Of a stretch of 24,840 nucleotides of DNA, positions 1,948 to 3,548 are shown piece after piece. The translations under genes and the position numbers were made by a program. How positions within the stretch are numbered: position 1 is the stretch's first letter; each line of letters begins with the position of its first letter. This stretch comes from a virus, in IMG/VR virus record IMGVR_UViG_3300048918_000077, positions 1 through 24,840 of that record, one strand, 5' to 3'. The notes beneath the pieces are model-generated. The model saw nothing but the letters and a program-made list of their open reading frames with translations, did no database searches and was not told where the DNA came from.

Positions 1948-2040
1948 ATAAGTGCATTAAGAGCGTAATCCACAGCCGATGGCGGCTTGTTGCTCTGGTA
2001 AAATATGCGGGATTTGAACGCATCGTTGTTTGAGGAAATT
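1948..2040. other. 93-base intergenic gap inside the replication operon
   Basis: The only sizeable spacer between 123 and 3548. It is AT-richer than its surroundings and contains TAAAAT near 1999, but there is no acceptable -35 at the usual distance. GAGGAA near 2031 serves as the ribosome binding site of the next gene. I see no terminator hairpin. Confidence 0.4.
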
Positions 2041-2940
2041 ATGGCCCGCATCCGCTCTGTCCATCCTGGTCTAGCCACTGACGAAGCTTTCATGGCTCTC
2101 ACGGTGGAATGCCCGGTCGCTATCGCTCTGCTACTGGGGTTGTGGTCTGAATCAGATGACCACGGCATCTTTGAATGGAAGCCGCTGACCCTCAAGGCTC
2201 GCTCAGTGCCGGCAATCACAACACCCATTGATGAGCTATTGGCTTGCTTGGAGCGCCACCGGTTCATCAAGAAGTTTGAATTGAACGGCAAGAGTTACGG
2301 AGCGGTTCGGAACTTCATGCGGTTTCAGCGTCCTAAAAAGCCGAACTACACCCACCCTGTGACTGATGAAGTTCTCCTCTATGTCGGAACCGGAGATGCG
2401 CCATGCGACGATAATTCCGAACCAGTTCCGAACCAGTTCCCCACCAGTGGGGAAAAGTCTCCGCAGATGAAGGAAGAAGGAGAAGGAAGAAGGAAGAAGG
2501 AGGAAAGGGAAACACCCCCCCAACCCCCCGCGAACTCGGAGGAACCGGTTCGGAAAATTGGTGGGGTGGGTGGATTAGGTTTGATCGAACCTGAACCGGA
2601 AGCGAAGGATTTCGTCCAGGTGATCCAAGCCTTCGACCGAGAGCGCGTGCTGGCCTTTGGCGAAGCGCAGGGCCGCCCTTGGCCGCACCCGAACGATCGC
2701 GGCGATGCTCAGCGCTTCTTGGCCGCTGGCGCTGATTTGCAGCTCTGCCGGGAGGTGTTCCGCGCTGCTTGCCAGAAGCTTGCCGGCCAGTCTGAGCAAC
2801 CGCCAGGATCATTGAAATTCTTCGAGAAACGCATCGCCGACGCCATCGCCTCACGCGATCGGCCGATGCCAGCCGGCCACGCCCGGACGCCCGATTTCGA
2901 CCCCGCAGCCTACATCCGTTCCAGGAGCCAACAGGCATGA
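2041..2940 (+). CDS. replication-initiator-like protein (winged-helix N-terminal domain, lambda O/DnaD-like layout)
   Basis: A 299-aa protein starting MARIRSVHPGLATDEAFMAL, a beginning common to a phage family found upstream of terminase genes in alphaproteobacterial phages. Residues 1-115 look like a winged-helix fold (ALLLGLWSESDDHGIFEWKP; IDELLACLERHRFIKKFEL; YGAVRNFMRFQRPKKPNYTHP). Residues 120-185 are a hydrophilic charged linker, KEEGEGRRKKEERE then proline-rich. Residues 195-285 are a second helical domain (FVQVIQAFDRERVLAFGEA; CREVFRAACQKLAG; LKFFEKRIADAIA). This two-domain-plus-linker plan is that of phage origin-binding initiators, which makes origin recognition a reasonable inference. 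ATG 2041 has GAGGAA six bases upstream, better than ATG 2005. The linker DNA carries the repeat cluster described separately. The stop overlaps the next start by ATGA. Confidence 0.65.
   Translation: MARIRSVHPGLATDEAFMALTVECPVAIALLLGLWSESDDHGIFEWKPLTLKARSVPAITTPIDELLACLERHRFIKKFELNGKSYGAVRNFMRFQRPKKPNYTHPVTDEVLLYVGTGDAPCDDNSEPVPNQFPTSGEKSPQMKEEGEGRRKKEERETPPQPPANSEEPVRKIGGVGGLGLIEPEPEAKDFVQVIQAFDRERVLAFGEAQGRPWPHPNDRGDAQRFLAAGADLQLCREVFRAACQKLAGQSEQPPGSLKFFEKRIADAIASRDRPMPAGHARTPDFDPAAYIRSRSQQA
2415..2447 (+). repeat. three tandem 11-bp repeats (iteron-like)
   Basis: TTCCGAACCAG occurs twice exactly (2415-2425, 2426-2436), followed by TTCCCCACCAG (2437-2447) with two changes. Related pieces lie close by: GGTTCGGAAC at 2304-2313, TCGGAACCGGA at 2384-2394, CCGGTTCGGAA at 2545-2555 and TGAACCGGAAG at 2592-2602. 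Confidence 0.7.
2437..2454. repeat. perfect inverted repeat, 8-bp arms with 2-base centre
   Basis: TTCCCCAC-CA-GTGGGGAA is a perfect dyad starting in the third tandem repeat. It could be a protein-binding operator-like site or a cruciform. It is not followed by a T-run, so it is not a terminator. Confidence 0.65.
2469..2512 (+). repeat. 44-base uninterrupted purine tract followed by C-runs
   Basis: Only A and G from 2469 to 2512, built of GAAGGA/GAAGAAGGA units. Then come C7 at 2515-2521 and C6 at 2524-2529. The tract encodes the charged linker of the initiator-like protein. Such strand-asymmetric tracts can form triplex or easily unwound DNA. Confidence 0.75.
2542..2551. repeat. 10-bp perfect palindrome GAACCGGTTC
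   Basis: A perfect self-complementary site whose half-sites match the core of the nearby 11-bp repeats (GAACC / GGTTC), so it may be a dimer-binding version of the same element. Confidence 0.55.
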
Positions 2941-3548
2941 CGATCGAGGAAATGATCACCGAACTTGCTGGCCTTTTCCCGAGCTATTTCAAGGACCAGA
3001 CCAAGATCGAAGGACGCATTGCGCATTACCGGAAATCGCTCGGCCACCTGAAACCGGATCGGCTGGGACAGGCGTTTGACGACACGATGCGGAACTGGAC
3101 GCGTGACAAGCCACCCATGGCGGCGGACATCCGCGACAACATCAAATCCATGGATTTGAACGACCCTGAAGGCTTCAACTTCAAGCGCATGAACGATGCC
3201 CTGCCAGGCATCATCGCCGACATCAAGGCGAGCTGGTGGCGCATCAACGGCGGCTGGGTCGATCGCCTGGTCGAAGAATTCCAGCGCGCCAATCCCGGCC
3301 ATGACGAGGCCGTCGCCGCGGAGATCCGGATGCGGGTCAAGGACTGCGTCAACACCCGCAGCCACACCTATGCCCAGCGTGTTTACAGGGGCGCGGTGGC
3401 TGTTCCAGACTTCCGGCTCGAGGACAGCGACGTGAACCGCGTCATCTGCAAGCCAGGGCCTTTGGATCCGTATGTGATCGCGATTCGGGAGGGCAGAGAG
3501 CCGCCGCGTCTCCGCCAATTGGCATCGCGCAAGAGCAGGGCGGCGTGA
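2937..3548 (+). CDS. putative replicative helicase loader/inhibitor-like protein
   Basis: A 203-aa protein joined to the initiator-like gene by an ATGA overlap. The N-terminal seventy residues (MTIEEMITELAGLFPSYFKD, then IEGRIAHYRKSLGHLKPDRL, then AFDDTMRNWTRDKPPMAADI) have the spacing of the helical N-terminal domain of G39P-type helicase loader/inhibitor proteins, whose pattern ends in a similar PP-x-x-A-x-I turn. The middle and C-terminus (RRINGG-like region, RVYRGAVAVPDFRLEDSDV, basic tail RLRQLASRKSRAA) are not recognised. The role suggested is recruiting host DnaB to the phage origin together with the preceding protein. This is a pattern-level resemblance and not a certain assignment. 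Confidence 0.5.
   Translation: MTIEEMITELAGLFPSYFKDQTKIEGRIAHYRKSLGHLKPDRLGQAFDDTMRNWTRDKPPMAADIRDNIKSMDLNDPEGFNFKRMNDALPGIIADIKASWWRINGGWVDRLVEEFQRANPGHDEAVAAEIRMRVKDCVNTRSHTYAQRVYRGAVAVPDFRLEDSDVNRVICKPGPLDPYVIAIREGREPPRLRQLASRKSRAA

Follow-up and report, generated by a model that had tools for sequence, protein, structure and literature searches.

A replication origin that lies inside the gene for its own initiator is a known kind of arrangement, represented by lambda O, SPP1 gene 38 and pSK41 rep. The origin in lambda O, which is a proven one, comprises four iterons next to a melting region (PMC6022878). One strand of this melting region is made almost entirely of purines, and this asymmetry of the lambda opening region has been presented as a paradox, given the greater stiffness of such DNA (review, PMC5043065). 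We find that the purine strand of lambda is the coding strand and that it lies just after the iterons. SPP1 gene 38, which encodes the replisome organizer, contains oriL with direct repeats (PMC6316719). In pSK41 rep, the origin DNA encodes the linker that joins the winged-helix domain to a C-terminal domain specific to the host (PMC5703833), and the boxes of the pSK41 type are semi-palindromes around poly-A (PMC7145576).

Here we describe a locus in a virus record of 24,840 bases, which is classed as linear and is probably a fragment; this whole stretch of DNA is referred to as the window. Judging from its sequence and from the systems above, the segment at 2415-2512 is very probably the core of a lambda-like replication origin embedded in an initiator gene, since its layout matches that of the proven embedded origins and since, in several cultured relatives, the gene in the initiator slot has genes for P-like or DnaC-like loaders, or for DnaB-like helicases, as its neighbours. 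An embedded origin had been proposed here by analogy with lambda in a first-pass annotation. The analogy holds in that the origins of lambda and P22 occupy the corresponding position within the genes of their own initiators, and the proposal gains support from the layout kept in relatives, from which we infer origin function.

Comparison with described origins

As in lambda O and P22 gene 18, the repeated candidate initiator sites of the window are in the gene, between the regions for the DNA-binding and C-terminal domains, and as in lambda the iterons are followed by a region with purines on the coding strand. On the other hand, the iterons of lambda are 18-bp dyads about 20-24 bp apart, and its melting region is AT-rich, whereas the tract in the window has a GC content of 45%. 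The window shares with the RepA_N protein of pSK41 a winged-helix N-terminal domain, a central (here putative) origin in the linker and an exchangeable C-terminal domain, although the pSK41 boxes differ from 11-bp tandem iterons followed by a purine tract. SPP1 resembles the window in having a direct-repeat origin inside an initiator-type gene, but differs in its AT-rich unwinding element and in its second origin, oriR. The phages of PHROG 1408 ('replication initiation protein') have an initiator of the same protein family as the window, and no origin is annotated in the phage records of this type that were examined. The iteron-plus-purine module was not found described in a literature search that covered few subscription journals. 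What appears to be new is the phasing of 11-bp iterons to a GC-neutral purine tract, an arrangement that is widespread and apparently unannotated. One relative was met in a plasmid record, but this record turned out to hold the genome of a P22-like phage and so adds nothing in favour of plasmid replication.

The initiator gene and its protein

The gene and the parts of its product are as follows.

2041-2940, + strand: winged-helix replication initiator gene (PHROG matches, start of relatives, AlphaFold2 model)
2041-2325, + strand: winged-helix DNA-binding domain, residues 1-95, proposed reader of the iterons (AlphaFold2)
2389-2601, + strand: disordered linker, residues 117-187, which holds the putative origin module (pLDDT below 60 in AlphaFold2)
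2608-2865, + strand: exchangeable C-terminal helical domain, residues about 190-275 (confident AlphaFold2 model)

The open frame extends over 2005-2940 (+) from an ATG at 2005, but the ATG at 2041 is taken as the start because relatives begin at MARIRS, in a conserved MARIRSVHPG. The product had been called initiator-like from its letters, and this is borne out by a match to phrog_1408 ('replication initiation protein'), which covers residues 13-179 of the 311-aa frame at E 1.1e-20; four further 'replication initiation' PHROGs are also matched. No Pfam family matches the window initiator at E 0.1, and the wing domains of 11 relatives have no Pfam match at E 1, Phage_rep_O (PF04492) and RepA_N (PF06970) included, whereas Phage_rep_O, which is the N-terminal domain of lambda O, is matched by lambda O at 6e-36 and by P22 18 at 7e-38. 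By sequence, the window initiator belongs neither to the lambda O family (Phage_rep_O) nor to RepA_N; by analogy, it would work like both.

The wing domain is modelled by AlphaFold2 with pLDDT mostly above 90, in the order helix-strand-helix-helix-strand-strand. Its structural matches are not above noise: the plasmid initiators 4pt7, 5kbj and 4pta score Z 6.4-6.8 (rmsd 3.2-3.7, 86-92 residues aligned) and are tied with unrelated winged helices, while 4pql scores Z 7.7, so that the similarity to 4pt7/4pta on the RepA_N side is weak. No convincing sequence relative with a solved structure was found. The linker is charged (K/E/R/G), and its disorder, which had also been suggested at first reading, is confirmed by pLDDT, which falls below 50 over most of residues 120-181. 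The C-terminal domain, which may be the contact for a helicase or loader, is shared with only three fetched loci. An assignment of its fold was dropped: the best Z was 6.0, and two candidates of interest, the DnaB-bound lambda P 9oa1 (75 residues aligned at Z 5.4, rmsd 3.5) and the DnaD domain 2i5u (67 residues aligned at Z 5.2, rmsd 2.5), were tied with unrelated AAA+ lids.

Iterons and purine tract

The DNA features of the module and its outlying sites are listed below.

2304-2312, - strand: outlying copy of GGTTCGGAA, which encodes the conserved AVRNF of the wing domain
2415-2425, + strand: iteron 1, TTCCGAACCAG (11-bp period in relatives)
2426-2436, + strand: iteron 2, TTCCGAACCAG, an exact copy (sequence)
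2437-2447, + strand: iteron 3, TTCCCCACCAG, 82% (variant also common in relatives)
2447-2454, - strand: inverted fourth unit GTGGGGAA, forming a dyad with 2437-2444 (present in the consensus of relatives)
2459-2468, + strand: conserved junction CTCCGCAGAT, at a fixed distance from the last iteron unit (alignment of relatives)
2469-2512, + strand: all-purine tract on the coding strand, 45% GC, proposed opening region (sequence, codon resampling, stability)
2541-2555, no strand assigned: outlying GGAACCGGTTCGGAA, which holds a 10-bp palindrome, of uncertain membership (sequence)

The three tandem 11-mers, two of them exact, are present at 2415-2447 as the first-pass annotation had it. Its perfect 18-bp dyad has perfect 8-bp arms (TTCCCCAC at 2437-2444 and GTGGGGAA at 2447-2454), but it is not a strict palindrome; the dyad at 2437-2454 is hyphenated because a 2-base centre separates the arms. 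GTGGGGAA is retained in the linkers of 24 of 71 relatives. The sole strict 18-bp palindrome of the window, TCAAATCCATGGATTTGA at 3142-3159, is also its longest strict palindrome and lies in the ORF at 2937-3548.

Other sites around the iterons had also been grouped with them. The 10-bp palindrome GAACCGGTTC does occur at 2542-2551, but its membership of the module is uncertain, and alone it is uninformative because the window contains dozens of perfect palindromes of at least 10 bp. Likewise, the scattered copies of TTCCGAACC/GGTTCGGAA number four in 24.8 kb and all fall within 2304-2555, while the assignment of the outlying ones to the module is uncertain. Of 60 windows simulated with a Markov-2 model, 1 had four copies of a non-purine 9-mer packed into 260 nt, and by itself the cluster is only mildly unusual. 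The copy at 2304-2312 does not count as independent evidence for a site, because conservation of the protein (AVRNF) can explain it.

The 44-nt tract at 2469-2512 is the only purine/pyrimidine run of at least 18 nt in the window. Tracts of relatives have a mean GC content of 54%. The earlier remark that the opening region would be purine and not AT-rich agrees with the 45% GC of the tract, but its stability is nevertheless lower than that of most of the DNA around it: by nearest-neighbour energies, only 2.9% of the 40-bp stretches of the window are as unstable or more so. The medians of the same measure are 4% and 13% in the window's clade and in a second clade described below. This low stability is partly due to a GC content below that of the locus. 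The purine tracts are themselves periodic, at 7 bp in the clade of the window (GGATGGA) and at 5 bp in the second. The C-runs after the tract (2515-2521 and 2524-2529) exist, but they are not part of the core and show a weak excess in relatives (20/71 and 12/40 in the two clades, against 17% and 14% of control windows). P22 gene 18 (L152:960-985) has CCCCCTTACCCCC after its origin, and the same string follows the purine tract in the linker of the relative L042; the window shows its C7/C6 runs at a comparable position.

Conservation of the layout in relatives

In an exact search of 2.9 million viral contigs for two tandem copies of TTCCGAACCAG, five contigs were found, and every match was in the linker of a related initiator. 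A profile search gave 80 loci of the window's clade, which together with earlier loci yielded 71 representatives of less than 85% identity. In 62 genes, the bases over about 67 nt ahead of the tract agree at lag 11 with a value of 0.41, as against 0.26 in shuffles (z 20; this and the other z-scores given here are inflated and overstate independence, since relatives share ancestry), with further peaks at lags 22 and 33. About a third of the relatives have no significant 11-bp run when taken singly. A CAGA-anchored alignment is gap-free to agTtCcGaAcCaGTTCCgaACCAGTTCCCcACcgGTggGGAAAa..CtCCGCAGATGGAGGATGGAGGAGG in 61 of the 71 genes, and in 45 of these 61 the spacing from the last GGAA element to CAGA is 14 nt; the iterons and the tract are therefore phase-locked. 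In 59/71, it is the linker that holds the best purine/pyrimidine tract of the locus, and this tract is on the coding strand. Stenotrophomonas phage SOVA965 is one cultured relative that shares the layout.

A second clade of wing domains, of the MARIRTVKPEFW type, is represented by 40 loci. Its iterons, TCGnCGAr, are again 11 bp long with letters unlike those of the first clade, and its junction is TCACCCCCGGAAGGGAAGGG. The z-score at lag 11 is 19, or 12.5 against synonymous shuffles, and in 34/40 the best tract of the locus is in the linker on the coding strand. Thus the repeats are kept in relatives, in that the 11-bp period, the order of iterons, spacer and tract, and the place between the two domains persist across two divergent clades, while the linker protein and the letters of the iterons drift, as an alignment of relatives proposed at the outset now shows. 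Iterons, tract and gene have the same orientation in all compared loci.

Plasmid iterons also have control roles. The repeats, which sit inside a transcribed gene, might accordingly be an operator or copy-control site, restraining their own gene or pairing origins, with the true origin elsewhere in the phage. Such a site has no need for a purine tract at a fixed phase, operators are usually found at promoters, and the intragenic repeats of lambda, SPP1 and pSK41 are the origin itself; we consider a control site improbable.

In a third clade (HK639, F10, JBD44), the linkers have AAGCACCATGC-like 11-mers and CTGATTC repeats, and strong purine tracts occur in some members only, so the iteron-plus-tract rule is weaker there. 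The 7-bp CTGATTC repeats, which encode DSLNLIPDSL, are seen with or without a purine tract in the linkers of L139, L141, L142, L145 and L146 of the HK639/F10 clade. Phage HK639 (L139:2501-3364) has a winged-helix initiator with a lambda O-like tail (28 residues, 57% identical, NTDWxYGV) and adjoins a gene for a P-like loader, which makes it a natural swap of the DNA-binding half of lambda O.

Constraint at the DNA level

A charged, disordered linker of K/E/R/G residues could give purine-rich codons and chance repeats as a by-product, with no function at the DNA level. When codons were resampled for the same protein, however, the mean purine score fell to about half (observed 25.3 and 26.2, resampled 13.4 and 14.3, in the first and second clades), and the 11-bp periodicity was lower. 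The purine score is above the codon null at p<=0.05 in 55/71 and 32/40 genes. The window itself exceeds the null on both signals, period and purines (p<=0.005), with a purine score of 44 against a mean of 17. A purine score of at least 20 is reached by 68% and 63% of linkers in the two clades, whereas control windows seldom reach it (0.1% and 0.9%), and pyrimidine tracts with a score of at least 20 are absent from the linkers of both clades. Codon counts within the tract were excluded, because the tract is defined by its purines and the count is biased by construction. The iterons start in the three frames almost equally (14/20/19 in the first clade, 31/26/24 in the second). These signals, which exceed same-protein resampling and run through all frames, indicate that the constraint acts on DNA; a by-product of low-complexity protein is rejected by the resampling and is hardly credible. 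At the junction CTCCGCAGATGG, which is in a single reading frame in 42 of 44 matches, there may be a constraint on the protein.

The purine tract might alternatively act in the mRNA, where it is rich in GGAGGA and lies on the coding strand: RBS-like GGAGG could slow ribosomes between the domains or start a shorter C-terminal product. This explanation leaves aside the phase-locked iterons, as well as A-rich tracts such as that of lambda, and the chance that it holds is very small. Internal starts after the tract show no in-frame excess, 10 being found where 9.0 are expected in one clade and 1 where 3.0 are expected in the other (expectations taken from the other frames).

The module is specific to its gene. 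All 44 exact matches of CTCCGCAGATGGAGGATGGAGGA are in this type of initiator gene or are cut at a contig end. The 23-mer of the first-clade junction occurs in 44 contigs, of which 43 have a wing domain upstream and one ends too early to show it. A 20-mer of the second clade occurs in 73 contigs; its own wing domain precedes it in 70 of them, and the other three are truncated there by the contig end. Behind the module, 10 and 17 unrelated clusters of C-terminal domains are found in the two clades, as against a single N-terminal cluster in each. In these sequences, the wing domain and its iterons are shown to stay together while C-terminal domains are exchanged freely. The same counts would suit a recombination seam, in which the DNA is conserved because it helps phages to exchange C-terminal domains. 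For a seam, the letters themselves would have to be shared, but here the 11-bp period persists where they differ; and exchange is foreseen in any case when an origin moves together with the domain that binds it, as described for RepA_N plasmids (PMC5703833). A seam deserves scarcely any credence.

Proposed mechanism of opening

With 2415-2512 read as an origin core, copies of the initiator would bind side by side to the 11-bp iterons through their winged-helix domains, approximately one per helical turn. By analogy with lambda, the resulting nucleoprotein complex would strain the adjoining purine tract, which would open, and one strand would be captured for helicase loading. The C-terminal domain presumably recruits the helicase or its loader. 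The origin DNA would be free to evolve at this place because it codes only for a flexible linker.

The feature that the lambda origin and these putative origins share is purine asymmetry on the coding strand and not AT-richness. It is conceivable, as a tentative extension, that in a large, unannotated class of phage origins, with a purine tract held at fixed phase to 11-bp iterons, purine asymmetry, rather than AT-richness, is what opening requires, via strand capture or an RNA-DNA hybrid formed when the tract is transcribed; if so, the AT-rich region of lambda would be one special case of purine-asymmetric opening. A purine tract without AT-richness bears on the paradox of the lambda opening region stated in PMC5043065. 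A sequence rule that may locate unannotated phage origins follows: in the linker region of a gene for a winged-helix initiator, an 11-bp period is combined with a purine tract on the coding strand. The specificity of initiators for their origins becomes open to testing, as iterons and wing domains come in pairs whose letters differ.

Gene neighbourhood

Upstream of the initiator is a RusA-like gene, and downstream are terminase and portal genes. The ORF at 2937-3548 directly follows the initiator in the position of a loader; no family in Pfam, PHROGs or NCBIfam matches it and no clear relative was found, and its assignment as a helicase loader is therefore unsupported. The GC skew, which had been suggested as a check, drifts with gene direction in this one-directional 24.8-kb fragment and is not diagnostic of an origin. 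As for DnaA boxes, the whole window has two sites at one mismatch from the E. coli box; one of them, TAATCCACA at 1966-1974, is about 440 bp upstream of the iterons. This site sits between the initiator gene and a small ORF just upstream (1600-1947), which has a weak match, below the cut-off, to the C-terminal helix-turn-helix of DnaA (Pfam E 2e-4).
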